The notes under the pieces: model-generated
What the model was told of the DNA's origin: nothing
Seen by the model: only the letters and a program-made list of their open reading frames with translations
The model's database searches: none
Source of the DNA: Ignavibacteriaceae bacterium
Lineage (GTDB): Bacteria; Bacteroidota; Ignavibacteria; Ignavibacteriales; Ignavibacteriaceae
Assembly (NCBI GenBank): GCA_013360295.1
Contig: JABWCL010000005.1
Location: 62,001-126,000 of the forward strand
Length of the DNA stretch: 64,000 nt
Direction of reading: 5' to 3'
Translations under genes and position numbers: made by a program
Part shown: positions 32,103-58,709 of the stretch, piece by piece
Layout of the letters: the number at the start of each line of letters is the position of its first letter
How positions within the stretch are numbered: position 1 is the first letter of the stretch

Positions 32103-32111
32103 TTCACCGGG

Positions 32112-32438
32112 TCAGTATTTTCCGAAGAAGCTTGTAATATCAAAGTAGTAATCATAGCGGGTCCCATTGGAAAGCACAATTTCGACCTGTTCTATCTGGC
32201 GGGAGTTTACCTTTAATTGGCGCCTGCCGGTTACCTTCCAGTCAATATCCTTCCGCCCGAATTCCTGCGCGAGGATATCGTTTTCAGCGGGCGCTCCATA
32301 AAGCGTGGAAGACGCCTTGATGATAACGGCATCATCTACGGATGCACCGTTCCCTCCTCCGATCAGGACGAGGCTTTTATCATCATCGATACTAAAGTGA
32401 TGAGAGTTCATTAAATATATTTTAAAGTGGTTACGCAT
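32112..32438 (-). CDS. Small hypothetical protein
   Basis: Up to 108 residues; an internal ATG nine codons in (MNSHHFSIDD) is also possible. It is a small beta-rich protein with no signal or membrane segment and no recognised domain. Its proposed first ATG lies 6 bp after the stop of a 50-codon open stretch that looks like the C-terminal end of another host gene, so it may be the distal gene of an operon whose first gene was cut by the island next to it. Confidence 0.55.
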   Translation of the reverse strand: MRNHFKIYLMNSHHFSIDDDKSLVLIGGGNGASVDDAVIIKASSTLYGAPAENDILAQEFGRKDIDWKVTGRRQLKVNSRQIEQVEIVLSNGTRYDYYFDITSFFGKY

Positions 32439-32444
32439 TAATAT

Positions 32445-32606
32445 TCAAATTTTTTCCATAATTGGCAAGTCAAAAGAGATAAATGATATATTTTCGCCCG
32501 CGAAATCCGCCTTTGGTGCCGTAAAAGATACATTCCGGTAATATCCCCGGGCAACGAACAATACAGCAGACAGAATGTTGCTCCCTGACTTCCATTTTTC
32601 GCTTCA
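32445..32606 (-). pseudogene. Possible C-terminal remnant of a host gene at the island edge
   Basis: An open minus-strand stretch of about 50 codons, without a convincing start, ends in TGA just before the small hypothetical gene. The translation (VARGYYRNVSFTAP, then FAGENISFISFDLP near the end) and its GC-rich codons look host-like, while the sequence to the right turns AT-rich. I read it as the surviving 3' end of a gene broken by island insertion. It is short, so chance is not excluded. Confidence 0.35.
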
Positions 32607-32621
32607 GTAAAATGAGGAAGA

Positions 32622-32636
32622 CTATACAGCGTATAG
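32622..32636. promoter_or_regulatory. Palindrome CTATAC-AGC-GTATAG
   Basis: A perfect 6-bp inverted repeat with a 3-bp centre lies next to an AGGAGG box and a 17-codon TTG-started reading frame (32648). It may be an operator or just an edge scar; nothing nearby decides it. Confidence 0.3.
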
Positions 32637-32722
32637 GAGGCTTAAACTTGAACCCTCCGTGCCGGAATCCCCATAAGGCACCGAACGCCCAGCAGTGCTA
32701 AAAAGATTATTAGGTTTGCAAA

Positions 32723-32863
32723 ACAGGCTATTTTACCCGTGACGGTGTTGAGAGGTCGGGGCTTATTAAAAGCGGGCGGGTGATGAATTATCCTGCTTTC
32801 CCTGCAGAGTAATGCTGTTCCGCGTTAGGCACTGGTAAAATAACCTTCGTTGCAGGAGAATAA
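32723..32863 (+). repeat. 141-bp repeat, copy 1 (left of the nuclease gene)
   Basis: It matches the second copy at 129 of 141 positions with no gap, and weaker similarity continues to about 32951. An inner 120-bp unit is bounded by the inverted repeat GGCTATTTTACC (32726) and GGTAAAATAACC (32834). It contains a GTTAGGC box as in integron core sites, but the matching inverse core is missing. It may be a recombination site, a small non-autonomous element or a structured RNA. Confidence 0.85.
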
Positions 32864-33065
32864 TTATTCTAATTAAGAAGTCTAACATACATATAAAAAA
32901 GCGCTTGCCTCTATATCTGACTAATATTATATTTGTTTGATAAAAAATGCATAACAGGAAAAAGCCAACCCTATTTGCAGGCACATTGCAAAATCTTCTC
33001 GAGCCAAGGCTTTGTCATAGATTGCAATCTTCCTGATACAAACTAATAATCGAGAATGAACCATT

Positions 33066-34004
33066 ATGTATTATAGAGAATCTGAGCGGGAAAAAGCCCT
33101 AAGAATCAGAGATGAATTCTTCAAAGACCCCGGTTATGGTGAACATCTAAAATATAAGTATCCTTATGTTTTAGAGCAAGCGGAGAAAAACCTATGGACA
33201 AAAATCCGAGAGGAAGCTATTAAATATTTTGCTGATAATAAAATAGTCTGGTGGCCTGGTGCAACGGAACCATCAGGACATCTTCTATCTTCGCAGGTTT
33301 CATGTGTCAATCATTTGTTTTTTTTAAGAAATGACAAAGCTGCTGCTCTTAAGATTTTGCAAAATTTAAATCCTGATTTCACGGAGGTTTGCCCTGACTT
33401 TGAAAATGGTTATATCGGTTTTGAAGTAGTGAGTAAACACAGTTATCTTAGAGAAGTTGTAGATGAGCAAGTTCAAACAAGAGGGGCTAACTGCACTTCA
33501 GTTGATGCAATGATGACCGGGAAATTAAAGGACGGCAAGAAAATTAAAGTTCTTATTGAATGGAAATACACTGAACATTATTCTAAATCTAATAAGTCGG
33601 AAGGATCAAGAGGGACAACCAGGAAAAGCAGATATGACGCGCTAATTGATGACAAGAATTCTCCAATAAATAGAACCGTAAGCATCGACAACTTATATTA
33701 CGAGCCATTTTATCAAATTATGCGACAAACCTTATTGGCTTGGCAAATGACCAAAAACAAAGAAAATGAATTAAATGCCGATGATTGGTTGCATTATGAT
33801 GTGATTCCAGAGAACAACTTAAATCTTCGATATCAGGTTCCGGCACCTGATTTGCTACAAACTGGGATTGAAGAGGCATGGAAATCTCAACTCAAAGAAC
33901 CACAAAAATATAACGTAATCACTCCTCAAAAACTGCTGAAACCTATTATTGTTGACCTTAAATATCGTAGATTAATTAACTACCTGAATTATAGGTATTG
34001 GTAA
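33066..34004 (+). CDS. Putative PD-(D/E)XK restriction endonuclease (PGN_0703-like)
   Basis: 312 residues. A nuclease core is readable as Asp 147 (SVDAMM), then a beta-strand ending LIEWKYTEH with Glu 165 and Lys 167, the D...ExK arrangement of the PD-(D/E)XK fold. The segment SSQVSCVNHLFFLRND upstream is typical, as I recall it, of the 'PGN_0703 family putative restriction endonuclease'. It lies alone between two 141-bp repeats and may pair with the DNA methyltransferase of the next operon or be an orphan. Codon use is more AT-rich than host genes, in keeping with transfer. Confidence 0.72.
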   Translation: MYYRESEREKALRIRDEFFKDPGYGEHLKYKYPYVLEQAEKNLWTKIREEAIKYFADNKIVWWPGATEPSGHLLSSQVSCVNHLFFLRNDKAAALKILQNLNPDFTEVCPDFENGYIGFEVVSKHSYLREVVDEQVQTRGANCTSVDAMMTGKLKDGKKIKVLIEWKYTEHYSKSNKSEGSRGTTRKSRYDALIDDKNSPINRTVSIDNLYYEPFYQIMRQTLLAWQMTKNKENELNADDWLHYDVIPENNLNLRYQVPAPDLLQTGIEEAWKSQLKEPQKYNVITPQKLLKPIIVDLKYRRLINYLNYRYW

Positions 34005-34628
34005 TTTGCTTACTATGGGAAAAAAGTACAGGCTATTTTACCTGTAACGGTGTTGAGAGGTCGGGGCTTATTGAAAGTGGGCGGGTGATAAATTATCGTG
34101 CTTGCCGTGCAGAGTACTGTTGTTCCGCGTTAGGCACTAGTAAAATAACCTTCGTTGCATGAGAATAACTTTTCACGAAAACAGGTTAAGATCTTTGTTA
34201 AAAAGCTCTTGCTTCTTCATTTGGCTGTTATTATCTTTCTATGAGAAAATGCGTTTATTATGCAGAAAATACAATTTTTAAAGTAACTCTTACGCAAATT
34301 TGTGTAAAAAAAGTTAGGTGCAAGTGTAGCCGAAAACACAATAACCATCAAGAGACAGACAATTTAAAGAAAAGGTAAACCAATTTGACAAGTGACCAAA
34401 AGATAGACTATTTCCTGAGCGAACAACTAGCAAACCGTCACGCCTTGCCGACTCCAATGTATTTTTTATTTTTTCGCACCACACTTTTTAATTCAATTTT
34501 ATCCCGCCACACAACCGGCACATTTGGTTTTGCGCTGCCCGCAAGCCAACTCCTTAGTAAAACTAAAAAGCCATTTTGGCTATAATACCAGCAAAAATGA
34601 ATAAATTTAACAACAAGAAATTGATGAT
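34005..34628. other. Spacer with second 141-bp repeat and no supported gene
   Basis: About 620 bp. The repeat copy occupies the first quarter. Downstream is an imperfect hairpin (TTACGCAAA/TTTGTGTAA near 34289-34306), followed by GTTAGGT. The 66-codon reading frame inside has no ribosome site and a composition unlike a protein, so I do not call it. The promoter of the HerA operon is presumably here, but no clear box was found. Confidence 0.4.
34028..34168 (+). repeat. 141-bp repeat, copy 2 (right of the nuclease gene)
   Basis: Same orientation as copy 1, with twelve substitutions and no insertion. Weaker similarity runs on to about 34255. In this copy the right inverted-repeat arm is AGTAAAATAACC, one more mismatch. 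The two copies enclose the PD-(D/E)XK gene as a 1.2-kb cassette-like unit. Confidence 0.85.
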
Positions 34629-36734
34629 ATGAGCATAGAACAAGGACTTAACTCAAGACGAGAAGACGACAAGCAGGTTGAAAGCCAGCAATGGTTTCAA
34701 AAGCTGATTCAAGCAGACCAGTATGTTGGTGACATCTACTCTATCAACTATGAGACGGCAAGGGTAATCATTCACGAATTTTACAGAGAAAAAGTCGGTG
34801 GAATACCAAGTTTAAGTTTTCTGATTGCGACAAGAGTTGACCCGAGCAAGACAGACATTGACTTTAAAAAGGAAGATGCTTCATTTGTTCTTTTGCGTGT
34901 AATGGATGCAGCGGCATTGCCACAAGACAAAGAAGCTGAAAGGATAAGGGTTGAAACAGCTCAAAGGATAAGCGGAGAAACTGAAAAACATTGGGATGAC
35001 GCAGGTTCGATGGACTTGCGAACAAAAAACATTCTTGGTTTTGCAGGGGTTCAATGCCGAATCATTGGAACATTCTTTCTCGAAGAAAATGGAAACAATG
35101 GTGAAGCTCCACTAAACCTTAAATTTGGTAGCGACATTTCTAATTACTACCCAAACAGGGGATTGAAAGTATATAAGCCTAATGGAAAAGCACTTGAACA
35201 AATCGTAAATTACGCTGACCCGTCAAGCATTCAGGCTCACATTGAAAAATATGGAAATACTGAAAGAGTTAAACTTGGGTTTGTTCGCTATGCTTCAACA
35301 AATCGTAAGTATCAGCAAATTGATGATGTCCCTGTTTACATTTACCCTGCGGACTTGCTATCTCAAAAATCTGCATTGTTCGGTATGACCAGAACAGGTA
35401 AATCAAACACTACGAAAATTATCGCCAAATCAGTATTTGAATTACGAACAAATGAAAATCCAAATGATAGACCACTACGAATAGGTCAAATTATTTTTGA
35501 CCCTAATGGTGAGTATGCAAACGAAAATGTTCAAGACAATAATTCCGCACTAAAGAATGTTTGGCAACTACTTCCAAATGGCGTAAAAGCCAATGAAGTT
35601 GTAACCTATGGAATAACACGTCATCCAAACGACCCTGACAGAACCTTAATGCTTCTAAACTTCTTTGAAACAAGTAACACACAGATTGGAAAAAGTATAA
35701 TTGATAGCATCTTATCAGAAGATAGCACTAATTACATCAAACAATTTTGCCAAGTAAGCTTTGATGAACCTGACCCAAATGACCGAAGTGCAACTACACG
35801 TTATAACAGACGATTATTAGCCTATCGTTCAGTATTAGCCAGAGCAGGTTTTCAAGTTCCTCCAAATTTAAGGGCAAGCACAAGGGGTTTATTTAATCAA
35901 GACTTGATTACTGCCCTTCAAACAGGAAGAAATAATAATCCACCAACTCCTGAGTATGTTTCAGCAGCTCAAGTATTCTCAAATCTAAATCCTGCTTGGG
36001 GGCAACTTGCTAATGCTTTTGAAGCATTAGATAAATTCATTCGAGATAGCAGTAGCAATTACACCACATTTGAAAATGCCTATGTAAGTCGTCCGAATGG
36101 TTCAGGCGACAGATGGGCTGATGAAGATTTGAAAAAAATCATTGGCATTTTTCAATATCCCAACGGAACAAGAAAGATCGGTAAAGCGGCAGAACAACAT
36201 AGTGCCGACACAACAAGTGATTACGCTGAAGATATTTACAACCACCTTGTTCAAGGTAAATTGGTAATAATTGACCAGTCAAGTGGTGAACCCGAACTCA
36301 ACAAATCTTCTGCGACCAGAATAATGACAAAGATTTTCAAAGAAAATCAAAGAAAATTTGTTCAAGGCGAAACTAACATTCCTGAGATTTTAGTCTATGT
36401 TGAAGAAGCCCATAATATTTTACCCGCAGGTAATGATTTAGATTTATCTGACATTTGGGTAAGAACTGCCAAAGAAGGTTCTAAGTATCGAATTGGAATG
36501 GTATACGCTACACAAGAAGTGAGCAGTATTCAAAAGAACATCTTAAAAAACACTGCTAATTGGTTTATCAGTCACTTGAACAATACAGATGAGACAAAAG
36601 AACTTTGCAAGTATTACGACTTTGCAGACTTTGAACCATCAATAAGGCGAGCACAAGACAAGGGATTTTTAAGAGTAAAAACATTAAGTAACCTATTTGT
36701 CATTCCTGTTCAGGTTGACAAGTTTGAAGTTTAA
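34629..36734 (+). CDS. HerA-like hexameric ATPase/translocase
   Basis: 701 residues. An N-terminal beta-barrel-like region (about 20-200, with [20 protein letters not shown]) precedes a FtsK/HerA ATPase. Walker A is [10 protein letters not shown] at about 252-261, a first acidic strand is [10 protein letters not shown], and Walker B is [10 protein letters not shown] with Glu near 592. A TQ sensor (YATQEVSSI) and a final Arg-rich stretch follow. HerA proteins pump DNA and partner with NurA nucleases in archaeal end resection and in several bacterial defence systems. The NurA-like gene follows after 12 bp. Confidence 0.9.
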
Positions 36735-36746
36735 AGCACTATCATT

Positions 36747-38132
36747 ATGAGTTTTGAAGGAGAATTTGCCAGTTACGAGCCTTTAAGACGGTTACTTGAT
36801 AGTGAAAAAGTTAAAGCACTTCAAAACCGACTTAAAATAAGGCAACAAGAAGAAGAAACAGAAGACTTTGAAGGTTCAATAGTCAAAAAATCTGATTTGA
36901 CTGAAAGCACATTGCAACCTGATTTAGTTCTTGCAATTGATGGAAGCAATTTAGCTGCTAAAGCAGAAAACGGATTTCCCGGTGCTGAATTTGGCTACAT
37001 TACAATAGCTTCTGTTTTAATTGACTTAAAGTTAATTGGAGAGTTAGAAAAAAAGGAATTTGTAGAACCAAAGAAATTTCGGGAAACTGAGAAGGCATCA
37101 ACTATTGAAAGTGTTTTTCCCGGCTGTAATGTAATTCTTGATAGAGAAAAGAATGCCAAATCTTCTTTAAGGAGAGCTTTGTTTGAAGAGTTACGAAACA
37201 ACACCATTTTCACAGATGGGGAAACTTTGCTTGACACTTACGAGCATCTTTTTACAATAAAACGGGAGCATTTTAAAGAAAAGAATTTACCAAGAAGTCC
37301 AATTGAAGGAGTTGAAGAAGAAATGACATATGACTTTGGGGAATATACTTGTCCTCATTCAGGTGAGCCGCTTTTCTCAACTGATGCTTTACGTTTACAC
37401 GAACTTATGAACCCAGGCGGGAGTAATGGTGAAATGTTTGGACAAATAATGTCCACTCTTGAAAAACTTTGGCTTGTTCATATTCTTAGAGCATTTGAAC
37501 GCAAAGGTTGGCTGGCAACACTTCGGAGAGTTGCTTTTATAATGGATGGCCCTTTAGCTGTGTTCAGCACTTCATCTTGGTTGACGAAAGTTATTAGCCA
37601 CGAATTAACCCGCCTAAATGACCTTCAAAGGAAAGTAAACGGGCAAGACCTTCTTATAATTGGAATTGAAAAATCAGGAACATTTTTTGATCACTTTATT
37701 GAAATTGATACTACCAAAGACGGAGTAACAGACAAGTTTCCAAAGCAATCAGCCCTGCTTTTGAATGATGGTTACATAAAAAGAAATATCATATTTTCTG
37801 AAAGTTCTAAACCATACGGACAAGACACCTATTTTGGCAGAAAACTGTTCTATAAAGCAGCATCAGGTCAAAAGATTGTTGCCGTTATAGCTATACTTAG
37901 AAGTTTTGCCTCTAATCAAGAATACAAAGATTATTTAGAATCAAGTGATCCATCAAACTTTACGAGATTAGCAGATGTTATGAACATACTCGACCAGCTT
38001 GTGTCAAGCAGATATCCTAATTCAGTTTCACCATTAGTTTCAGCACACGCAGAAGCAGCTATCCCATTGAACTTAGGCAAACGAATATTTGAAGATATAG
38101 CAAGAGAAATCAGAGAGAAATCAAAAGAATGA
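36747..38132 (+). CDS. NurA-domain nuclease
   Basis: 461 residues. The NurA fold is suggested by LVLAIDGSNLAAK (Asp 65), then FIMDGPLAVF (Asp 267) and the strand LLIIGIEKSGTF, the spaced acidic positions of this RNase H-like family. Family members are Mn-dependent 5'-to-3' nucleases driven by HerA. The protein is longer than archaeal NurA (about 330-350) because of a N-terminal extension and an insertion around 130-220. It overlaps the methyltransferase gene by four bases, so the two are translated together. Confidence 0.82.
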   Translation: MSFEGEFASYEPLRRLLDSEKVKALQNRLKIRQQEEETEDFEGSIVKKSDLTESTLQPDLVLAIDGSNLAAKAENGFPGAEFGYITIASVLIDLKLIGELEKKEFVEPKKFRETEKASTIESVFPGCNVILDREKNAKSSLRRALFEELRNNTIFTDGETLLDTYEHLFTIKREHFKEKNLPRSPIEGVEEEMTYDFGEYTCPHSGEPLFSTDALRLHELMNPGGSNGEMFGQIMSTLEKLWLVHILRAFERKGWLATLRRVAFIMDGPLAVFSTSSWLTKVISHELTRLNDLQRKVNGQDLLIIGIEKSGTFFDHFIEIDTTKDGVTDKFPKQSALLLNDGYIKRNIIFSESSKPYGQDTYFGRKLFYKAASGQKIVAVIAILRSFASNQEYKDYLESSDPSNFTRLADVMNILDQLVSSRYPNSVSPLVSAHAEAAIPLNLGKRIFEDIAREIREKSKE

Positions 38133-39256
38133 TAGCAAAGGAAAAAACATTAAAAGGTTTTGAAACAGCCGAAGCACGTTGGGCAAGGTTTGGGCCATAC
38201 TATGCTATGTTTCCTTTGGAATTTGCATTTGATGTAGTTGAGAAGTATTCAAAGAAGGGTGATTATATCATTGACCCTTTTGCAGGCAGATGCAGTAGCA
38301 TATATGCAGGTGGTGTTTTAGGAAGAAACAGTTTGGGTATTGAAATTAATCCTGTAGGTTGGCTATATGGTACTGTAAAACTTCAACCAGCGGTGAAAGA
38401 AGAAGTTGTTGACCGACTTCTTGAAATTTATGGTAAGAGAAACTATTACAATAGAGCCATACAGCGAATGCCCGAATTTTATCGTTTTTGCTATTGTGAT
38501 GAAGTTCTGAAATTCCTTTTGGCTGCCAGAACTCATTTAGATTGGAAAAACAATAATGTTGATGCGACTTTAATGTCAATCCTTCTAATTTATCTACACG
38601 CAAAACTTGGCGAAGGACTTTCCAATCAGATGAGAATGACTAAATCAATGGGAATGAATTACTCGGTGCAATGGTGGAAGAAAAATAAAATGTCCACACC
38701 ACCTGAAATAAATCCTTGCGATTTTATTCTCAAAAAAATTGAGTGGCGTTATGAGAAAGGAAAGCCTAAAGTTACTGAGAGTGTCGTAGTGTTTGGCGAC
38801 AGTTCAAATGAATTAGTGAACATTGCAGAACGAGCAGTAAAAAACGATATAAAATTTTCATTGCTGTTTACTTCACCACCCTATTACTCAATTACTGACT
38901 ATCACGCTGACCAATGGTTGCGACTTTGGCTTTTAGGTGGTTCTGAAAATCCACAATCACTAAAGGACAAACACAAAGGACGATTTGTAAACAAGCAAGA
39001 TTATTATGACCTGCTTGACAATGTTTTTGGTCTTTGTGCCAAAATGATGAAACGGAAAAGCACTATTTACGTTCGGACAGACAAGAGAGAATTTACATTC
39101 AACGCGACACTTGAAATCCTGAAAAAGCATTTTCCAAATCATTCAGTAAAAATTGTAGAAAAACCTTTAACAAAAGATACTAGGACACAAACAAAACTTT
39201 ACGGAGATAAGACAATGAAACCCGGAGAAGTTGATATAATAATGACAAGAAAATAA
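38129..39256 (+). CDS. DNA methyltransferase (SAM-dependent)
   Basis: 375 residues. The SAM-binding motif I appears as IDPFAGRCSSIYAG (Asp 49) and the catalytic motif IV as LLFTSPPYYSITDYH (Ser 249-Tyr 252). Motif I precedes IV with about 200 residues between, where a target-recognition region could fit. The SPPYY form is seen in N4-cytosine and N6-adenine enzymes. It could mark self DNA so that HerA-NurA attacks only unmodified DNA; this is inference. It is five bp from the dGTPase-like gene. Confidence 0.85.
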   Translation: MIAKEKTLKGFETAEARWARFGPYYAMFPLEFAFDVVEKYSKKGDYIIDPFAGRCSSIYAGGVLGRNSLGIEINPVGWLYGTVKLQPAVKEEVVDRLLEIYGKRNYYNRAIQRMPEFYRFCYCDEVLKFLLAARTHLDWKNNNVDATLMSILLIYLHAKLGEGLSNQMRMTKSMGMNYSVQWWKKNKMSTPPEINPCDFILKKIEWRYEKGKPKVTESVVVFGDSSNELVNIAERAVKNDIKFSLLFTSPPYYSITDYHADQWLRLWLLGGSENPQSLKDKHKGRFVNKQDYYDLLDNVFGLCAKMMKRKSTIYVRTDKREFTFNATLEILKKHFPNHSVKIVEKPLTKDTRTQTKLYGDKTMKPGEVDIIMTRK

Positions 39257-39261
39257 TAAAT

Positions 39262-40641
39262 ATGAATTGGAAGAATTTACTAAATGAAAATAGGCTAAGA
39301 CCTTCATCAAGAGATAAGTCTGATGATTTTAGAAATGAATTTGAAAGTGATAATGGCAGGATAATTTTTAGTCCAGCAGTAAGAAGGATGCACGATAAAA
39401 CTCAGGTATTTCCTTTAACAAATGACGACAATATCCATTCGAGATTAACTCATTCACTTGAAGTTATGTCGGTTGGGGAATCAATTGCACTAAATATTTT
39501 AAATAATCAGAAATTTAAAAATATCAGTGGCCTAGATCAATCGCATTATTTAAGACAAATACCCGTAATAGTAAAAAACGCATGTTTAGTTCACGATATA
39601 GGGAACCCTCCTTTTGGACATTTTGGCGAAGCAGTAATTCAAGGATACTTCAAGAACTTATTTATGCACGACCGTGAAAATGAAGAAAAAAATTTAAATC
39701 CAAAATTTGAGATAAGTAATTTAGAGAGACAAGATTTTGAATATTTTGACGGGAATGCTCAAGGATTAAGAGTTTTAACAAAACTGCAAGTTTTGGATGA
39801 CTCATTCGGTTTAAATCTAACTTATGCAACTTTGGGAGCATATATAAAGTATCCGAACTTTGATGAATTAATATCAGACAAGAGTAGTGTTGAATATTTA
39901 ACCAGAAAGAAAAGGGGGATTTTTCAATCCGAAAAGGAATATTTTAAAACCATAGCTTCAAACTTAGGCATAGAGTCAAATCAAAAATATCTGCGTCACC
40001 CATTGGCTTATATAGTGGAAGCCGCAGATTCAATATGTTACTTAATTATGGATATTGAAGATGGATATAATAAAGGTTGGTATAATTATGATTATATTAA
40101 AGATGTGTTATCTAAAAATAAACCATTGAAAGATCTATTTGAAAAAATTGATAAAGCGTCTAAAAGTGAAATATCCAACATTGTAAATCTAAGGCATGGT
40201 TTGATTAAGTATTTTGTTGTGTTATCTGTAAATAACTTTATTAATAACTATGATAGTATAATGAATGGAGCTTATTTAAAAGAATTAATTAAGGACGACG
40301 AAAATGAAGTTGCTAAAGAGCTAAGCAATTATTGTACTTCAAAAATATTTTCAAATAGGGAAATTACATCACTAGAGTTAACCGGACATTCCGTAATAAA
40401 AGGATTACTGGATTATTTTATTGATTTTACCTTTTCAACTAATTGTGCCTATAGAAAAAGAGCTGTTGGATTGATTTCGAAAAGCATTAAAAAGGCAGCA
40501 ATATTAGAAACAGGAAAAGATTCATTCGAAGAGTTATCTTCTTATTATAAGCTTAGAGTAATTGTTGATTTTATTTCGGGGATGACTGACCAATTTGCTT
40601 TAAATCAATTCCGGAAAATCAGTGGCCAAAAAATTATCTGA
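39262..40641 (+). CDS. dGTPase-like HD-domain triphosphohydrolase
   Basis: 459 residues of the Dgt family, which removes tripolyphosphate from dGTP and related dNTPs. Family signature at the N-terminus: RRMHDKTQVFPL; HD metal ligands in RLTHSLEV (His 64), LVHDIGNPPFGHFGE (His 111, Asp 112) and a later Asp in EAADSICYLIMDIEDG. Length equals the usual 450-510. dGTPases are known to protect bacteria from phages by depleting dNTPs, so a defence role in this operon is reasonable. Its codons are more AT-rich than the HerA-NurA-MTase genes. Its end overlaps the next gene by 20 bp. Confidence 0.9.
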   Translation: MNWKNLLNENRLRPSSRDKSDDFRNEFESDNGRIIFSPAVRRMHDKTQVFPLTNDDNIHSRLTHSLEVMSVGESIALNILNNQKFKNISGLDQSHYLRQIPVIVKNACLVHDIGNPPFGHFGEAVIQGYFKNLFMHDRENEEKNLNPKFEISNLERQDFEYFDGNAQGLRVLTKLQVLDDSFGLNLTYATLGAYIKYPNFDELISDKSSVEYLTRKKRGIFQSEKEYFKTIASNLGIESNQKYLRHPLAYIVEAADSICYLIMDIEDGYNKGWYNYDYIKDVLSKNKPLKDLFEKIDKASKSEISNIVNLRHGLIKYFVVLSVNNFINNYDSIMNGAYLKELIKDDENEVAKELSNYCTSKIFSNREITSLELTGHSVIKGLLDYFIDFTFSTNCAYRKRAVGLISKSIKKAAILETGKDSFEELSSYYKLRVIVDFISGMTDQFALNQFRKISGQKII

Positions 40642-41323
40642 TATCGAACTATTAGTAAATGAATCTAACCACTCTTTTGTAGACTACTTGCAAAGCAACT
40701 TTGACAAAAGAGTGATTGATTTGTTGAACGAATTATCTGAGGAAACCGATATTTACATATTTAGTGGAGTAATCAGAAATTACTTCCTTAAAATTAACGA
40801 GAATAGAGATTTAGACTTGGTTCTCGAAAAAGAAATAGAGTTGCAAGAACATCTTTCTAATTATAAAAAATCAGTTAACAGTTTTGGTGGGTATAAAATT
40901 GAACATGAAAAACTAAACATTGATTTGTGGTTTATGAATGATACTTGGTCAGTAAAAAATCATCAACTAACACTAAATTATGAACTTGACAAGTATATCC
41001 CACAGACAGCATTTTTCAATTTCTCTGCAGTAATGTTTTCTTATAAGAGAAAGGAATTTATATGCACTAAATATTTTCTTAGGTTTCTGCGGGATAAAAA
41101 ACTCGAATTGGTTTACGCACCGAATCCTAATAATGCTCTTTGCATCGTAAACACATTTTATTATAGTGAGAAATATAAAATGAAGATTGGAGACAAACTG
41201 AAAGTTCATATTAAAAAAATATCTGTTACTAATCTAGAGCAAACAATTGATGTTCAAATAAAGCATTTTGGTAGAGTCATTTATTCTATTGATGACCTAA
41301 AAAGCCGAATAGACAAATTATAA
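40622..41323 (+). CDS. Nucleotidyltransferase-fold protein (CCA-enzyme-like head)
   Basis: 233 residues, GTG start. The Pol-beta nucleotidyltransferase motif reads SGVIRNYFL...NRDLDLVLE (Asp 63, Asp 65), with the third acid in LNIDLWF (Asp 101), like the GGxVRDxLL-DxD arrangement of CCA-adding enzymes; the first Gly is Ser here. There is no HD or tRNA-binding domain. The last hundred residues are basic and helical. It is co-translated with the dGTPase-like gene by a 20-bp overlap, so the two are functionally linked. Substrate unknown: it might add nucleotides to RNA or a protein, or make a signal. Confidence 0.72.
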   Translation: MAKKLSDIELLVNESNHSFVDYLQSNFDKRVIDLLNELSEETDIYIFSGVIRNYFLKINENRDLDLVLEKEIELQEHLSNYKKSVNSFGGYKIEHEKLNIDLWFMNDTWSVKNHQLTLNYELDKYIPQTAFFNFSAVMFSYKRKEFICTKYFLRFLRDKKLELVYAPNPNNALCIVNTFYYSEKYKMKIGDKLKVHIKKISVTNLEQTIDVQIKHFGRVIYSIDDLKSRIDKL

Positions 41324-41605
41324 AACTCATGGAAAGCAGTCACACAGAATGCCAAGTTGCGAAAGTATACCTATAAGACTAAATATGGCGAATTGAAGTT
41401 GTACCTGCCGACTGAACACAGGAACCTAAAGAAAGAAAATTGAGAGACGAATAAAAAATGGCTGTTAACAATGGATATGCGTCAGGTGGGGTGACTTGTC
41501 CTGATGCATCGGGATGCTCCGAAACCCGCTAGAACGCCACGCTCAGAACCATTATGCCTTATTGAGGATAAAATACAACGATCCCTGATACCTAATTTCA
41601 CGGTA
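41324..41605. other. Spacer between the HerA operon and the type III island
   Basis: About 280 bp without a supported gene. A 35-codon open stretch directly after the NTase stop (ending LYLPTEHRNLKKEN, stop at 41441) might be a decayed gene end. The rest is featureless, with a mixed base composition unlike the AT-rich operon to the left. Confidence 0.3.
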
Positions 41606-41653
41606 CTAATTGGCTGCTATCCATTCCTCCCACACTGAGGGCTGGTAACCGAC
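41606..41653 (-). pseudogene. 3' end of a second arsC/Spx-like gene
   Basis: The minus strand encodes VGYQPSVWEEWIAAN and a stop, matching the C-terminus VGYQPAVWEEWIKSEK of the intact gene at the right side of the island. Upstream codons are missing because the sequence changes into the RecG/AlbA-like gene. It is read as a displaced gene end left by integration. Confidence 0.75.
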
Positions 41654-41654
41654 C
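41618..41654 (+). repeat. Left copy of 37-bp direct repeat (attachment-site-like)
   Basis: 34 of 37 positions equal the right copy; the differences are two synonymous sites and one Ser/Ala codon. With the right copy it encloses 5.8 kb carrying the type III restriction system. Confidence 0.8.
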
Positions 41655-42631
41655 GCAGCCGCTCGGTAGACGTAGATATTCAATACGAAATTCCTCGCTT
41701 TGCCGTAACCGAAGCCATCGTGAATGCCATTGCCCACCGCGACTATACCAGCAACGGCTCAGTACAGGTGATGGTTTTCCGCAACCGCGTTGAAATATGG
41801 AACCCCGGAAAACTCCCAAATCAGTTATCACTCGATGACCTGAAAAGAACCCACGAATCGTTCCCGGCCAATCCTGTCATTGCCGAAGCAATGTTTTATG
41901 CCGGCTACATTGAAAGGTTGGGTACCGGCATCCCCGATATGATACAACACTGCCTCGACTCCGGTTTGCCTGAACCGGAATTTATACAGGAAGCCGCTTT
42001 CAGAACGATACTGTGGAGAAAAACCAATGCTACCGAACAACCTATCGAACAACCTACCGAACAACTTGCTGGGGAAGTTGCTGGGGAAGTTACCAGGGAA
42101 GTTGAGAGGGTACTTTTAATTATGAATCGTGAAATGAAAAGAGCTGAAATGCAGGTTTTATTACAGTTGAAGCACGATGATTTTTTCAGAACCAATTACC
42201 TTCTTCCCGCTTTACATGCCGGATATTTAAAAATGACCGAGCCGGACAGCCCTACAAGCCCCAATCAACGATACAGGCTTACCACCAAAGGCATGGCATT
42301 GAAAAAAGACCTTGAAAACAAAATCCGTACAACAATACTTACCCCTCATGATACCCCCTATGATGCACCTCATGATACCCCCTATGTTACACCCTATGAA
42401 CTTGATCAACAACTTATTCTAGTTTTGTCAGGCGAAATGAACAGACCTGATCTGCAAAAAAAACTTGGCATAAAAGACACCAAACACTTCCGGAATAGTT
42501 ATCTGAAACCTGCTCTGAAAAAGGGATGGATTGAAATGACCATTCCCGATAAACCCAAAAGCAAAAATCAGAAATACCGCCTCACTGAAAAAGGCAAACT
42601 ATTGAAGAAAAAACTAAAAGAAAAGAAATAA
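41639..42631 (+). pseudogene. 5'-truncated RecG/AlbA-like ATP-binding protein
   Basis: The open frame starts right after a stop inside the direct repeat and has no proper N-terminus; a GTG at 41720 might still start translation. The first readable residues (VTEAIVNAIAHRDYTSNG, then VEIWNPGKLP) are the GHKL-like ATPase part of the 'ATP-dependent DNA helicase RecG-related' family, whose N-terminal AlbA domain is absent. Downstream are two copies of a winged-helix module ending in QRYRLTTKG and QKYRLTEKG, joined by repetitive linkers (EQPIEQPTEQ and HDTPYDAPHDTP). Such genes often neighbour type III systems. Probably inactive. Confidence 0.75.
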
Positions 42632-42632
42632 T

Positions 42633-44516
42633 ATGAGCAAAATTGAAATTAAAAAAACCGAACTCGTTTGGCGTGGAAAGTATGATGACGAAGGGAAATT
42701 AGTACCCGTTGAAAAACCCGGTCCCTTTCCCTTTCAGATAGTGGAAAGTATTAACGAACCTCGGGTTGAAAAAGGTGATGAAGTTCCAAAGCAAACCACT
42801 CTGTTTGATACATGGAAAGGAGATGAGGGAAGCACCTTTGAAGACGGTTGGAAAAATAAACTTATCTGGGGCGACAACAAGTTTGTGATGAGCTCCCTGT
42901 ATGAAAAATTTGCCGGCAAAATTGACCTTATTTACATTGACCCGCCATTTGCGACCGGTGCGGATTTTAAGTTTGAGCTTTTAGTAGGTGATAAAGGGGA
43001 GACAATAAATAAAGAACACTCAATTTTAGAAGAAAAAGCTTATAGAGATACTTGGGGTGAAGGAATAGATTCATTTATACAAATGTTATATGAACGACTT
43101 TCGCTAATGAAGAATCTTCTTTCAGATACTGGTTCAATTTATATTCATCTAGACTGGCGTGTTCACAATTACGTAAGAATAATTCTTGAAGAATTATTTG
43201 GTATTGATTGTTTTCAAAGAGAAATTATTTGGTATTTTGATAATGTCTCTGGTTATAAGAGCATTGCAAATAATTGGATCAGGGACCACGAGACAATATT
43301 ATGGTTCACAAAATCAAATAATTATACATTCAATAAGGTGTTTGGTGATTACCCACAAGGTTATGAAAATAAATTTTCCAATATTGATGACAATGGGAGA
43401 AGATTTATGAAACGTGCTGGAAGAAAACAATACCTCGATGAATTAAAAGGTAAACCACTAGGTGATGTTTGGCGAATTCCCTTTATTAATAATATGTCTT
43501 TAGAGCGGGTTGCATATAGTACACAAAAACCTGAAACACTTTTAGAAAGAATTATTAAAGCAAGCAGTGATGAGGATGACTTAATCGCCGATTTCTTTTG
43601 CGGAAGTGGCACAACCTGTGCGGTAGCCGAAAAACTAAACCGCAGATGGATAGGTGTGGATTTGGGACGCTATGCCATCCACACCACCCGCAAGCGCCTT
43701 CTTGAAATTGAAAACAGTAAAAGTTTAACTGAGGAGGGGAAGAAATACGGTAAGAAAGCAAAGCCGTTTGAGATACTCAACCTCGGCAGATATGAACGGC
43801 AATTCTGGCAGATAAAAGCGTTTGGCAAAAAAGACGAGAAACAGGCATTGTTTGAATACCTCGCTTTCATTCTAAAACTTTACGGCGCAGAGCCGCTGCC
43901 GGGTTCTTCAAGCATACACGGAAAGAAGGGAAATGCATTGGTGTATATTGGTGCAGTGGATGCGCCGGTAACCATTCAGGAAGTAACCGATGCTCTGAAC
44001 GATACCAAACAGATGGGGCAAAAGGAACTGCACATACTCGGATGGGAGTGGGAGATGGGGCTGAACGATGCCATACAGGAAGTGGCAAAGCAAATGGCTG
44101 TCCGGCTTAAACTACGCATCATTCCTATGGATGCCATTGACCCGCAGGCATCCGGTAAAGGAGATGTGAAATTCTTTGAACTGGCTTATTTCAAAACCAA
44201 TATTGAGACAAACGGGCTGAAAGTTAAAGTAAAATTGGAAGATTTTGTAATTCCGCATACTGATCTTATTCCGCCCGATGTAAGAGAAAGCATTAAAAAA
44301 TGGAGCGACTGGATTGATTACTGGGCTGTGGATTTTGAATTTCAGAATGATACCTTTAATAATGGTTGGACAAGTTACCGCACCAAACAGGAACGTAAAC
44401 TACGCCTTATTGCCGACTATGCATATTCCAAAGCCGGTACTTACAAAATTTTTGTGAAGATAATTGATATTTTCGGAATTGATACATCGCAGGTTTATGA
44501 AATCAAGGTGAAATAG
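42633..44516 (+). CDS. mod: Type III restriction-modification methyltransferase (Mod)
   Basis: 627 residues. The beta-class order is seen: catalytic DPPF in LIYIDPPFATG (Asp 103) comes before the SAM-binding ADFFCGSGTT (Asp 320). The target-recognition region between them (about residues 125-315) is markedly more AT-rich than both flanks, as if exchanged by recombination. Mod modifies N6 of adenine in an asymmetric site and gives the complex its sequence specificity. The res gene follows two bases after the stop. Confidence 0.93.
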   Translation: MSKIEIKKTELVWRGKYDDEGKLVPVEKPGPFPFQIVESINEPRVEKGDEVPKQTTLFDTWKGDEGSTFEDGWKNKLIWGDNKFVMSSLYEKFAGKIDLIYIDPPFATGADFKFELLVGDKGETINKEHSILEEKAYRDTWGEGIDSFIQMLYERLSLMKNLLSDTGSIYIHLDWRVHNYVRIILEELFGIDCFQREIIWYFDNVSGYKSIANNWIRDHETILWFTKSNNYTFNKVFGDYPQGYENKFSNIDDNGRRFMKRAGRKQYLDELKGKPLGDVWRIPFINNMSLERVAYSTQKPETLLERIIKASSDEDDLIADFFCGSGTTCAVAEKLNRRWIGVDLGRYAIHTTRKRLLEIENSKSLTEEGKKYGKKAKPFEILNLGRYERQFWQIKAFGKKDEKQALFEYLAFILKLYGAEPLPGSSSIHGKKGNALVYIGAVDAPVTIQEVTDALNDTKQMGQKELHILGWEWEMGLNDAIQEVAKQMAVRLKLRIIPMDAIDPQASGKGDVKFFELAYFKTNIETNGLKVKVKLEDFVIPHTDLIPPDVRESIKKWSDWIDYWAVDFEFQNDTFNNGWTSYRTKQERKLRLIADYAYSKAGTYKIFVKIIDIFGIDTSQVYEIKVK

Positions 44517-44518
44517 TT

Positions 44519-47251
44519 ATGCCAAATTCGATAGTTCATTACGACAAAACACTTCCATACATTGAAGACCGCAACCCGTGGGAGGTGCCAACCTGCTTTT
44601 TGAAGAAGAAAGCTGCAAATGAATATGAAGTGGTGCAGGGGCGAAGACCCAGCAAAATGCTTCTGGTTAATAAACTCCGTTCTGAAGTAGATAAATGGCG
44701 TAACGATGGTTATACCGGAGCTACAGCAACTTCACAGGAATTGCTGGCATTTTGGTTTGACCAGTCGCACCCGCCTGTTTTTGGCAATGAGCCATTCCAT
44801 TTCTATTTCTGTCAGCGTGAAGCAGTGGAAACAATCATCTATCTTTTTGAAATAAAAAAATTCACAGATGTAATTCCGCTTATCCAAAAGTACCATGAAA
44901 AATTTAGCGGTAACCTGTTTGCTTCAACCATCGAATTCAGTGAAGATTTAGAAGGCAAGCGAAAAGTAAAAAGATACTTCCCCGAAAAAGACCAGGAAGG
45001 TGAGCAGGAGTTGCCGGAAAAAGATTTGTTGCGGTATGCTGTTAAAATGGCAACCGGCTCTGGAAAAACCTTTGTGATGGCTTTTGTGGTGGTTTGGAGT
45101 TATTTCAATCGCTTAAGGGAAAAAGACAGGCGATATGCCAACAATTTTTTACTGGTAGCTCCTAATGTGATTGTTTATGAGAGACTCGCAAAAGACTTTG
45201 CCAATGGTAAGGTTTTTATGGAATTTCCTTTCATTCCCGATGCATGGAAATCGCAATGGAAACTTAATATTAAAGTACGTGGAGATGAAAGCCCGCTTGC
45301 TGCTGAAAACAATTTTATACTGAACAATATTCACCAGCTTTACGAAAGCCGTACTAAAGAATTTAACCCAAATACAATCATAGAAGCCATTCTTGGCCGT
45401 AAACCACAAAGTGATCCGGGTAAATCACCCCAAACCTTACTGGAAAGAATAAAAGAACTGGACAATTTGCTTGTGATGAACGATGAAGCACATCACGTGC
45501 ATGACGATGAATTAAAATGGAATGAAAGCTTGCTTGCCATTCACAAAAACTTACCTGGCGGTTTAAAGATGTGGATTGATTTTTCAGCAACCCCTAAAAC
45601 ACCCGAAAACACTTATTACCCCTGGATTATTTGTGATTATCCATTAGCACAGGCAGTGGAAGACCGAATTGTAAAAGTTCCTTTAATAGTTCACTCAGTA
45701 AATAAGAAAGACCCGGAAAAAATCACAAAAGACAATGTGGTTCAGAAATATGGAGATTGGATTTCAGCTTCCCTTGCCCGTTGGAAAGAACACAACGAGG
45801 CTTATAAAGGTGTGAAAAAGAAACCCGTGCTTTTTATTATGGCTGAAAAAAATGCCTTTGCTGATAAAATAGCTGAGGCAATTACAAAACGTGGTCAAGT
45901 CTATGGTATAACCAATGATGAAGTAATGATCATTCACACAGATACAAAAACCGGTGAAGTTCGCAAAAGCGATCTTGAAAGTTTAAGAGAGGAGGCCAGG
46001 GATGTAGATAATCCAAAAAACAAAATCAAAGTAATTGTTAGTGTCCTTATGCTTCGTGAAGGTTGGGATGTTCAGAATGTAACTATTGTTTTGGGTTTAC
46101 GTGCATTTGATTCTGCTATACTCCCGGAACAGGCAATTGGTAGAGGTTTACGTTTGATGAGAGATATCAGTCCCGACCGCACCCAAACGCTGGAGGTAAT
46201 TGGAAATGAAAACTTTGAGAAGATTGTTAAACAATTAGAGATCGAAGGTGTGGGCATTAACACAACCAAAACACCGCCACCACTTCCGGTTACCATTGCT
46301 CCTGAGAAAAAGAGATTACCTTATGACATCGAGATTCCGGCTACTGACTTTTCATATACCAGGGCATATAAGAATCTTTCTGGAATTGACGGCAAGAAAT
46401 TTCCATCGCTGTTTTCATCTTCAAAACTGAGCGAGGACAGGAAAACGCTTTTGAGAATGGAAGTGATGAATCTGGGCGTTGAAGTTCATCAGACTGCTAT
46501 TGAATCTGAATTTCTCGAATTAGGCAGGGACCTGACATCGTACATTGTTTCTCAGGTTATGAAGAAAGCCGGCTTAACGGATTGTTTCCAATTTGTTTAC
46601 CCGATTTGTGAAGACTATATTTTGAATAAATGTTTTGAAGTTAAAATTGATGATATTGAGAAAGAAGAATTAAGAAAGGTTTTACGAGAACTCTCTATTC
46701 AGGAGGCTATCATTGAACTTTTGGCAAAAGAAATAGGAAAAGCCACAGTTGAGAAAAAGCAGGTAAAAATCAAAGGAAAAAGCTTAAAACTATCAGATAC
46801 GCCAAAATTTACCTGGAGGCGGGGTCACATACGTCTGAAGAAAACCGTGTTTAATTTCGTTGCCACCTACAACCCGTTTGAAGCTGAGTTTGCTGAATTT
46901 CTTGATAATGCAGTCGACATAGAAGCTTTTGCCGCATTAGCAGACATTTTCAGAATAGATTATCTTTCAAATACCGGAGCTATTCGTTATTATTTTCCTG
47001 ATTTTGTGGCGGTACAATTGGCTGGGAACAAAAAGGTATTCTGGATTTTAGAAACCAAAGGACGTGAATACCCCGATCTTGACAACAAGAACAAAGCTAT
47101 CGGGCGCTGGTGCAAAGCAGTATCAGAGCAGACAGGTTTGGAGTGGAATTATTTGTTAGTTAAGCAAGCAATATTCAATGTGAATAAAAAGTCAACGAAA
47201 ACTTTAAAGCAGTTAGAAGATAAAATTAATAGTCAGACAAAAATTGAATAA
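44519..47251 (+). CDS. res: Type III restriction enzyme Res subunit
   Basis: 910 residues. The superfamily 2 helicase has Walker A in ATGSGKTFV (178-184), the DEAH box in NDEAHHVHDDE (Asp 322), a SAT motif in DFSATPKTPE and motif VI in EQAIGRGLRLM. A C-terminal PD-(D/E)XK nuclease is seen as FPDFVAVQ (Asp 828) and WILETKGRE (Glu 845, Lys 847). It cuts when two unmodified inversely oriented sites meet. The gene appears intact, so with Mod it should form an active system. Confidence 0.94.
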   Translation: MPNSIVHYDKTLPYIEDRNPWEVPTCFLKKKAANEYEVVQGRRPSKMLLVNKLRSEVDKWRNDGYTGATATSQELLAFWFDQSHPPVFGNEPFHFYFCQREAVETIIYLFEIKKFTDVIPLIQKYHEKFSGNLFASTIEFSEDLEGKRKVKRYFPEKDQEGEQELPEKDLLRYAVKMATGSGKTFVMAFVVVWSYFNRLREKDRRYANNFLLVAPNVIVYERLAKDFANGKVFMEFPFIPDAWKSQWKLNIKVRGDESPLAAENNFILNNIHQLYESRTKEFNPNTIIEAILGRKPQSDPGKSPQTLLERIKELDNLLVMNDEAHHVHDDELKWNESLLAIHKNLPGGLKMWIDFSATPKTPENTYYPWIICDYPLAQAVEDRIVKVPLIVHSVNKKDPEKITKDNVVQKYGDWISASLARWKEHNEAYKGVKKKPVLFIMAEKNAFADKIAEAITKRGQVYGITNDEVMIIHTDTKTGEVRKSDLESLREEARDVDNPKNKIKVIVSVLMLREGWDVQNVTIVLGLRAFDSAILPEQAIGRGLRLMRDISPDRTQTLEVIGNENFEKIVKQLEIEGVGINTTKTPPPLPVTIAPEKKRLPYDIEIPATDFSYTRAYKNLSGIDGKKFPSLFSSSKLSEDRKTLLRMEVMNLGVEVHQTAIESEFLELGRDLTSYIVSQVMKKAGLTDCFQFVYPICEDYILNKCFEVKIDDIEKEELRKVLRELSIQEAIIELLAKEIGKATVEKKQVKIKGKSLKLSDTPKFTWRRGHIRLKKTVFNFVATYNPFEAEFAEFLDNAVDIEAFAALADIFRIDYLSNTGAIRYYFPDFVAVQLAGNKKVFWILETKGREYPDLDNKNKAIGRWCKAVSEQTGLEWNYLLVKQAIFNVNKKSTKTLKQLEDKINSQTKIE

Positions 47252-47356
47252 GCCAACGCATTTGTAAGTTATTGCCAAAGCCACACATTCCAACGCTCCG
47301 ACCGAAGCTTTGTCAGGGAGCTTTTGTAGCTAGCATAAGAGGTCAATTTCAAAGTT

Positions 47357-47390
47357 AACTTCCTCGCTCAAAAAACTGATGTAGGAAGTT
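47357..47390 (+). terminator. Weak hairpin after the res gene
   Basis: An 8-bp stem AACTTCCT/AGGAAGTT has an 18-base loop and no T-run. It may be the end signal of the island operon, but support is weak. The surrounding 235 bp hold no gene. Confidence 0.35.
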
Positions 47391-47487
47391 GAGAGGGGAC
47401 AGGAATTAAACGGCAACAGGAACTTTCTGAGAACCTAATGACAGGTGTTCAGTTTTAAAATTTAACAATCGCCAGGATCCGAGCGTT

Positions 47488-47832
47488 TCATTTTTCGGAT
47501 TTTATCCACTCCTCCCACACTGCGGGCTGGTAACCAACCGTTACGAATTTTCCGTTTCTTACGATCGGCGTCTTAAAAAGGAGAGCGTCGTTTAACAGTT
47601 CATCTTCGATGCTGAATCGCATATACGACAAATTTCTTTTCTGATACTGCTTTCCTTCCTTATCAATCAGTTCCTCAACAGGTATGACTCTCTTAATGTT
47701 GTCAAGTTCCCCCGGCGCTATCCCTTTTTCGGAAAGGTCACGGTAATGGAACTGAATCCTTCTTTCTTTGAAGAATCGCTCGGCTTTACGGGAATCGGCG
47801 CACTTTTTGGTGCCGAATATCTGGATGTTCAA
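47488..47832 (-). CDS. ArsC/Spx-family thioredoxin-fold protein
   Basis: 114 residues of the arsenate reductase-like family (ArsC/Spx/YffB). The N-terminus reads MNIQIFGTKKCADSRKAERFF, with the single Cys at position 11 in a C-x-x-S context rather than Cys-x-x-Cys. The KRNLSYMRF and FKTPIVRNGK segments match the family's C-terminal part. The second Cys needed by arsenate reductases is absent, so a different thiol role is likely. Its last codons are duplicated 5.9 kb to the left, which marks this gene end as an integration site. Confidence 0.85.
   Translation of the reverse strand: MNIQIFGTKKCADSRKAERFFKERRIQFHYRDLSEKGIAPGELDNIKRVIPVEELIDKEGKQYQKRNLSYMRFSIEDELLNDALLFKTPIVRNGKFVTVGYQPAVWEEWIKSEK
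47503..47539 (+). repeat. Right copy of 37-bp direct repeat (attachment-site-like)
   Basis: It lies within the 3' end of the arsC/Spx-like gene; see the left copy. Gene 3' ends, especially tRNA and small protein genes, are usual sites of integrative elements, which restore the coding end on insertion. Confidence 0.8.
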
Positions 47833-51988: not shown

Positions 51989-53955
51989 AAAAGTGTGTAC
52001 TCGATGATATAAAAGGCAGGGAGCCGGTCATCCAGCGTAAGCACTAGACGCGAAGAATTGTGAAGGATATTATACTCCGGTGAATAAAATGATTCCCTAA
52101 GAATCACGGTGGCATTTTCTGAGGGGAATACAAATTTTACTTTTACTGCTGATGATTTCCCGGTTAACAGATATTCATTACCGCCGGATTTTTCGATTTT
52201 AATATCCGGGTGAATATTGATAATGCTTGTAATCTGATGGTAAGCGCCGCCGATAAACTCATCCTTAATGGTGATCTTGTTTTTATTCTTATCAAAAAAG
52301 AAACCGCGTTTGCAGATAACCGGGTCAGGCAACCGGACGTAAGCGTGATTGAGGATTACAAGGTTATCCTGCGCGTCTGTCGTGTTCCATTCAACTACTT
52401 TAGGTTTGCTCAGATCCACCGCGGTTCCTCCGTCGCTAAGCGAGGGAGTGTTGTCAATCAAAAATGTGTTATGGTGCCAGGCTGATCGCATCTTATCGAA
52501 TAACGTCAGGTCTTTAAAATATGAGCATACACCCGGATTTACGATAAAACTCTCCCCTTTATTTCGCAGTTCATAACTGAAAATATCATCGAATACAACC
52601 GGGAGCGGAAGGTCTGAATGAGAAGAACGAATAGAGATATAAAGTTCAGAATCCCGCGACCTTAAAAAATATTTCCCTCCCTCTGTATATCCGGCAGAAG
52701 ATAAATGTGTGGCATCATTAGCTGGCAGTCCGCTTCCTTCAAAAGTTACCTCTGTAAAAAAGTTTAAGAGTATGGCGCCGATCTCATTTTTGCCTGATGA
52801 ATGAAGCAGGTAACTTAGCGGAGATAAAATTTTTGAAAGACTGAAATTATATTTCGCCGCGAGACACGAGTGGAAACGGCTGAACGGGATCTTTCCTGAG
52901 CGGAATAATTTACCTTCACTGCCGCCGGCAGCGGTCAATACTTCAAGTAATTTTTCAAAAAGTTTCTTTGTTTTGGCATCCGCCGGAAGATCGAAGATAT
53001 TCGCCAGGGTAAGGTAGAGCGTTACCGATTCTGCCAGGTGCCAGTAAGGAGCGGTAGATGATTCCCTGAGCGAACCATCCTTTAAGATCTGTTTTTCCGC
53101 CTCAGCCCGGAAGCGTTTTACTGTCTGTTCGAAAAACTCTCCGGCGAGCGAATCCCCTTTATACAACCTGCTGAAAAGAAGAAGAAAGTTATGTCTGGCA
53201 AAAGCCCTGTAATCATTTTCGCCGGCACGCTGAATATTCTGGATGTACAACAAGCACGAGAGAAGGAAGGTGTTTATTTGGTCTAAGTTTTCCCCGAAAT
53301 GAACCGACCTACTGATCCAGGGCAAAGTCAGCATCAGGTTAACACCTCTCAGGCAGACTTCAGTGCCGTCATACCAGTTTATCCCTTTGCAAAAAGGATT
53401 CGAGTCCATAAAGGAAGTTACCATACTGAAGTAACCCCCGGCATATTTTTCTTCAGAAGTAAGTAAGTAAGCCAGAGCCAGATCGTATAACTGATGGAAC
53501 CTGGCTATATCCCACCCGTTCACCGGATCAGCCGCTTCGCTGAGCTGCGCGGGGAGGTTATCCCATATATAAACGAGGGGATAAGATATCCTGTTCAGGT
53601 AATCATAGTGCCAGTCAATCTGGGGTGTTGATATTTTGATGCTTGTGCGGAAAAGGGGGAGTTCATTTCCGAGCACTTTATCCGCGGATTCAATAATTTG
53701 CCGGAAATCCTCCCTGGGGAAACGGGAAATAATCTCCTGAGCCGGGAAGGAAAGCAGGTATTCGGGAAGCGCTTTATCCAGCACCTTCCGGTACCTTTTC
53801 AGTATACTGTCCGGAGGATAATGCTTTCCGGATGTATGGGCGGATTTCACCTCATTCCTGAAAAAGGCGCTCCCAAAAGCCGGTTTCGCGGGTTTTTTCC
53901 CAAACTCAAAAAGCTTCACCGTCGCAAGGCTCCTGCTGATATCCAAAAGTGGCAA
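51985..53955 (-). CDS. Heparinase II/III family protein
   Basis: Up to 656 residues. It has the alpha/alpha-toroid N-terminal region (LPWISRSVHFGENLDQ, ARHNFLLLFSRLYKGD) and the beta-sandwich Hepar_II_III C-terminal region (RSAWHHNTFLIDNTPSL, then KVVEWNTTD). Family members are uronic-acid polysaccharide lyases; in LPS/EPS clusters many may process glycans in ways not yet known. No signal peptide is visible. The start is uncertain: TTG at the upstream end, or GTG about 13 codons in. It begins the four-gene overlapping operon. Confidence 0.85.
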   Translation of the reverse strand: MPLLDISRSLATVKLFEFGKKPAKPAFGSAFFRNEVKSAHTSGKHYPPDSILKRYRKVLDKALPEYLLSFPAQEIISRFPREDFRQIIESADKVLGNELPLFRTSIKISTPQIDWHYDYLNRISYPLVYIWDNLPAQLSEAADPVNGWDIARFHQLYDLALAYLLTSEEKYAGGYFSMVTSFMDSNPFCKGINWYDGTEVCLRGVNLMLTLPWISRSVHFGENLDQINTFLLSCLLYIQNIQRAGENDYRAFARHNFLLLFSRLYKGDSLAGEFFEQTVKRFRAEAEKQILKDGSLRESSTAPYWHLAESVTLYLTLANIFDLPADAKTKKLFEKLLEVLTAAGGSEGKLFRSGKIPFSRFHSCLAAKYNFSLSKILSPLSYLLHSSGKNEIGAILLNFFTEVTFEGSGLPANDATHLSSAGYTEGGKYFLRSRDSELYISIRSSHSDLPLPVVFDDIFSYELRNKGESFIVNPGVCSYFKDLTLFDKMRSAWHHNTFLIDNTPSLSDGGTAVDLSKPKVVEWNTTDAQDNLVILNHAYVRLPDPVICKRGFFFDKNKNKITIKDEFIGGAYHQITSIINIHPDIKIEKSGGNEYLLTGKSSAVKVKFVFPSENATVILRESFYSPEYNILHNSSRLVLTLDDRLPAFYIIEYTLL

Positions 53956-54077
53956 AATATGGCAATCATAAACATTAAAATAATATTTATGTTTATCTTA
54001 TCTATCGAATTTTTTTTGAAAATGATTTGTTGAATACTCCAAGAGGATATTATTATTACCAATTGCCAGGATAGAAT

Positions 54078-55202: not shown

Positions 55203-55212
55203 TTACTAAAAA

Positions 55213-56664: not shown

Positions 56665-56903
56665 AAATCGCGCTAGTATTTAAATCCCTTAACGTGGGTT
56701 ATTTGCCCCGCAGGGATAAACTTAACAAGACAACGTTCCACCAGCCCACGGCTTTCAAATAGAATATGATGCCATAGCACCGTTCACGAGAAAATCGATC
56801 TCCCTGCCTGTGTGATCCCTTATTACGATGGAGGGGCTAATTATTACTGATTGTCAGGACAGTTACTCCTTAGTATATTTAAAATTTACTTATTTTGGAA
56901 TTA

Positions 56904-58697: not shown

Positions 58698-58709
58698 TCC
58701 TGCCCAAAT

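Follow-up and report, generated by a model that had tools for sequence, protein, structure and literature searches.

A partial copy of an arsC/Spx-like gene end inside a defense island of an Ignavibacteriaceae genome looks like a recombination scar

Gene content of the variable region

The window is the whole 64,000-nucleotide stretch analyzed here (G000:C72:62001-126000), part of a 4.46-Mb genome in 92 contigs with a listed contamination of 0.58%. Between a FecR-like gene, which ends at 32102, and an arsC/Spx-like gene, which ends at 47488, lies an interval of ~15 kb made up of two defense-type modules (Table 1). The right-hand module carries the type III restriction genes described in the initial annotation, and profile matches to both subunits bear that description out. 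Mod, a predicted N6 DNA methylase, and Res, a predicted DEAD helicase and nuclease, are encoded next to each other, as in type III restriction-modification (R-M) systems; the Mod/Res translations contain DPPF, FCGSGTT, GSGKT, DEAH, and ETKG motifs, and Res matches the NCBIfam BPTD_3080-like model at a score under its cut-off. The arsC/Spx-like protein likewise scores under the NCBIfam Spx/MgsR cut-off. No tRNAs or Rfam RNAs were found in the window.

Table 1. Features of the variable region and its arsC border (window positions)
Feature	Position	Strand	Basis or remark
Whole stretch differing from the sister genome G001, from the FecR-like gene to arsC	32103..47487	.	Synteny with G001:C314
Left-hand defense-type module (REase-ARP, HerA, NurA, DNA methylase, dGTPase-like, unassigned 233-aa protein)	33066..41323	+	
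Left repeat copy, probably the terminal codons of another arsC allele (VGYQPSVWEEWIAAN + TAG)	41606..41655 (repeat proper 41618-41655)	-	Unique in genome
Putative illegitimate junction: 4 to 5 nt that fit both the arsC tail and D-R codons in the truncated gene	41651..41656	.	Codon comparison with three full-length homologs
5'-truncated gene, C-terminal 324 aa: HATPase_c_4 + Fic-like_C	41657..42631	+	
Type III R-M methyltransferase (Mod)	42633..44516	+	PADLOC MTase_III 7.1e-146; Pfam N6_N4_Mtase 1.7e-47
Type III restriction subunit (Res)	44519..47251	+	Pfam ResIII 3.8e-16; PADLOC REase_III 5.8e-22
Intact arsC/Spx-like gene, 114 aa, bearing the right-hand copy	47488..47832	-	ORF; Pfam ArsC 5.6e-9
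Right copy of the 38-nt repeat, within the 3' end of the intact arsC/Spx-like gene	47503..47540	-	

The left-hand module has a repeat structure of its own. Direct repeats of ~223 nt (32723-32945 and 34028-34249; 82% identical, higher over the first 120 nt) lie on either side of the REase-ARP gene (33066-34004). The repeats have inverted ends (GGCTATTTTACC...GGTAAAATAACC) and a core that contains GTTAGGC. No third copy was found elsewhere in the genome. The REase-ARP gene with these repeats is possibly a cassette-like unit.

Comparison with related genomes

The nearest relatives in the collections are Ignavibacteriales/Ignavibacteriaceae, mostly metagenome-assembled genomes (MAGs), and the same-genus comparison rests on one genome, G001. 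There (contig C314, L051), OsmC is followed in turn by arsC, ~930 nt with a VapC-type PIN gene, and FecR, with the same genes as in the window beyond this interval on both sides. The G001 arsC gene, 94% identical to that of the window, thus lacks the island, but it is followed by VapC and unrelated sequence. The intergenic parts of the island had no nucleotide match in 20 relatives, and comparison with the G001 interval gave nothing matching except the arsC and FecR coding sequences.

The earlier proposal that foreign, variable DNA lies behind this gene therefore stands as a description, given ~930 nt with VapC in one genome versus ~15 kb of defense genes in the other; as evidence of an attachment site it does not. 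Relatives without variable cargo at this position, which had been expected to speak against such a site, are common: many carry conserved housekeeping genes directly behind arsC, the exceptions being an EcoRV-type R-M pair in G028, VapC in G001, and a XerA/integron-type recombinase in G074. The G028 pair consists of an EcoRV-type restriction endonuclease and a D12 methylase directly behind arsC (L066:4890-7287, G028:C85).

The HerA module and the Res gene are also found in other genomes, at places unrelated to arsC. Searching plasmids and phages for the cassette with the Res protein returned two distant plasmid matches (31% identity) and no phage match.

Two copies of the arsC/Spx-like gene end

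The direct repeat of the arsC/Spx-like 3' end noted initially is real. The two 38-nt copies agree at 35/38 positions, and a degenerate 36-nt pattern spanning both, with up to 3 mismatches allowed, occurs twice in the window and never in 100 dinucleotide-preserving shuffles. Across the whole genome, this pattern finds the two window copies and no third. As also reported before, the left copy retains codons and a stop, reading VGYQPSVWEEWIAAN and then TAG on the minus strand.

The safest arsC-derived span of the left copy is 33 nt (41618-41650, 31/33 identical). The next five nucleotides (GACCG, 41651-41655) can also be read as codons of the neighboring truncated gene (..D-R-S..), so the true arsC changes may number two instead of three. 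Exact matches between the copies reach 13 nt at most. They differ from each other at 3/36 positions, whereas each differs from G001 at 8/36 (28/36 identity). Because the copies are closer to each other than to the sister genome, the second allele would stem from this species or from a strain very near to it.

Similarity between the copies ends abruptly past TGGATA, and the flank downstream cannot be aligned. Among relatives, ArsC residues beyond WI vary freely in both length and sequence. The outer limit of the repeat thus coincides with the naturally variable C terminus of ArsC, which leaves one real breakpoint to explain and no need for a second. Beyond the repeat, the intact gene and G001 have the codons IKS in common (AAATCC encoding KS), whereas the left copy reads IAAN. 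This sharing of AAATCC makes the intact arsC end the ancestral-looking one and leaves it undecided which allele came in.

A truncated gene at the left copy

The gene that abuts the left copy lacks its 5' part. Both G004 and G140 encode full-length homologs, ~500 aa with an N-terminal DUF4062 domain, as does another locus of the window's own genome. Three of them (L086, L088, and L089) all align to the truncated gene from their residue 281, which means that 280 codons are missing exactly at the edge of the repeat. A microhomology of 4 to 5 nt may lie at this joint, as read from inferred ancestral codons.

In G004, the DUF4062 gene is part of a longer row (L086:5214-15288, G004:C27): radC, uvrD with PD-(D/E)XK, the DUF4062 gene, mod (in a split frame), and res, the first genes overlapping and a dGTPase fragment following res. 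This row may be a fuller form of the cassette in the window. Since it has radC and uvrD ahead of the DUF4062 gene, the window cassette would be one without its upstream genes. The dGTPase fragment is related to the dGTPase-like gene of the HerA-NurA module (39262-40641), so that the two modules share parts in a different order.

The left copy, at 41.6 kb, sits between the two defense modules, and the repeats accordingly do not bound the whole variable segment; the left copy is internal to it. The gene broken off at the inner side and the possible microhomology make the joint at the left copy look illegitimate rather than like the end of an element.

A parallel case elsewhere in the genome

Contig C29 carries a full-length DUF4062/HATPase_c_4/Fic-like_C gene with duplicated host-gene sequence on either side (L088:3857-8819; G000:C29, about 53856-58818). 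On one side of the DUF4062 gene is a truncated 5' copy, on the other the intact gene of a large secreted protein; the duplication spans 172 nt at 94% identity. The duplicated part has these two close copies in the genome, plus one other weak match. Gene order is conserved at the equivalent place in G001, where the host gene is uninterrupted and the DUF4062 gene is absent. Because the leader of the secreted-protein gene in G001 is nearer to the truncated copy than to the intact one, the intact C29 gene appears to have been given a new 5' end along with the DUF4062 gene. The listed C29 neighborhood contains no recombinase gene.

This putative scar is of the same kind and the same divergence as that at arsC, and both members of the DUF4062/HATPase_c_4/Fic-like_C family found in the genome adjoin a partial host-gene duplication (the arsC tail and the 172 nt on C29). 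If the parallel is more than coincidence, a defense-linked gene family would be arriving repeatedly with a copy of its target gene's end. That such genes are the recurrent cargo of a mobile unit which carries part of its target gene and keeps the target intact strikes us as a long shot.

Origin of the duplicated gene end

We consider it probable, with some reserve, that the locus is a mosaic formed when DNA of a ~94%-identical strain was acquired, one of its ends being joined by homology and the other illegitimately. The left copy would then be what remains of the 3' end of a second arsC allele, that of the donor strain, left behind as the foreign DNA recombined into the locus. One incoming end would have joined through ordinary homology, located in arsC/OsmC or else toward FecR. 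The other would have joined illegitimately, the arsC tail meeting codon 281 of the DUF4062/HATPase/Fic-like_C gene at the putative 4 to 5 nt of microhomology. Such an event would leave arsC with two ends, cut the cassette gene short, and place the two defense modules next to each other.

Recombination of this kind, in which homology anchors one end while a few base pairs join the other, is known as homology-facilitated illegitimate recombination (HFIR; de Vries and Wackernagel, 2002; discussed in PMC6382021). Joints of 3 to 10 bp have been documented in transformable bacteria (PMC6382021). We favor HFIR because the truncation falls at the repeat edge, the upstream cassette genes are missing, a single breakpoint suffices, no recombinase was detected in the window or on its contig, and C29 offers a parallel. 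The partial duplication also shows allele-level divergence, with 35/38 positions identical, or 31/33 over the safest span, versus 28/36 to the sister species. Against this reading, the remnant is short at 33 nt, and a similar picture would result if a site-specific event had taken place and the integrase end had then been deleted. No donor or recipient genome with the pre-event arsC locus was found, the comparison covering one same-genus genome.

That site-specific event, in which an integrase inserted DNA into the arsC 3' end, the two copies are attL and attR, and the integrase and the outer end of the element were later deleted, is the leading rival, although we think it unlikely. The copies do form a direct repeat of which one completes a gene, at a gene 3' end with a variable region behind it. 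Gene-end attachment sites are well known, as in the staphylococcal pathogenicity islands at rpsR with their 15-nt core (PMC8407400). An arsC/Spx-like attachment site, as the initial annotation proposed, was not found in the literature searched.

Several results speak against such a site here. With the repeat internal to the variable region and its inner side occupied by a gene cut at residue 281, insertion by an integrase would require that a further deletion stopped precisely at the edge of the core. A purpose-built tyrosine recombinase profile detected no recombinase in the window, a Pfam scan of the island proteins gave no recombinase domain of any type, and none of the five tyrosine recombinases of the genome is on contig C72; the integrase expected to use the site thus did not turn up. 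Nor was the predicted pattern of other cargo at the same breakpoint seen in the relatives searched, none of which is of the same species. No second copy of the arsC tail was found near arsC in 40 relatives or in 80 further loci (~120 related loci, the sets partly overlapping), and the top tail matches in the 80 loci were at the level of a reversed-query control. The repeat core, with up to 3 mismatches, gave nothing outside its own genome in a search of 59 relatives, and it was absent from viral contigs.

Recombinase genes do occur near arsC in three related loci, at 22 nt, ~9 kb, and ~5 kb; none of these loci has the arsC tail twice. The closest, in G074, is a XerA/integron-integrase-like (XerA/IntI-type) gene that ends 22 nt past arsC, at a contig end (L043:5090-6310, G074:C53), and it fits insertion by an integrase. 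However, relatives have ~7 tyrosine recombinases per genome, so that finding one within ~1 kb of arsC in 1/65 relatives is near chance (by rough estimate, 0.2 expected). The earlier suggestion of an incoming, separate version of the gene end may still hold, with allelic recombination as the route, while delivery through an integrase attachment site is unsupported.

Improbable, too, is a local duplication of the arsC tail, by tandem duplication or slippage, that preceded the insertion or deletion of the cassette and was followed by drift. The copies resemble each other more than they do the sister species, as this would predict, but their abrupt divergence past TGGATA and the unalignable downstream flank do not fit, and duplication alone does not explain the truncated gene at the junction. 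An assembly chimera of strain variants is very improbable even for a metagenome-derived genome in 92 contigs whose relatives are mostly MAGs, since the 13-nt longest exact match and the ~4- to 5-nt junction are too short to mislead a k-mer assembler and listed contamination is low. In order of decreasing probability, the alternatives are an integrase event with later loss, local duplication, and misassembly.

Taken together, the arsC-tail scrap looks like a fairly ordinary scar, left when DNA of a closely related strain was exchanged into the locus, and not like an integrase footprint at a new attachment site. On this reading, ordinary recombination among near-identical strains can splice defense cassettes with no integrase involved. 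A gene-end repeat found within an island does not on its own prove an attachment site.

Comparison with known systems

The right-hand module resembles type III R-M systems in that mod and res are neighbors whose products clearly match Mod and Res profiles. It differs in that a truncated DUF4062/HATPase_c_4/Fic-like_C gene precedes them and in the distance of Res from prototype profiles. The left-hand module shares HerA and NurA, together with a DNA methylase and a dGTPase-like gene, with defense modules of the HerA-NurA type, although its composition matched no named PADLOC system.

With integrative elements that use a gene 3' end as attB, such as the rpsR islands (PMC8407400), the locus has in common a short direct repeat of which one copy completes a conserved gene. 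Unlike those elements, it has no detected integrase, its repeat lies off the island edge, a truncated gene stands at the joint, and no such repeat occurs in the relatives searched. With HFIR, compared here from sequence in which the homologous anchor is not visible, the locus shares partial duplication and sequence loss at the joint, and it would also share the pairing of a homology-anchored end with a few-base-pair joint.
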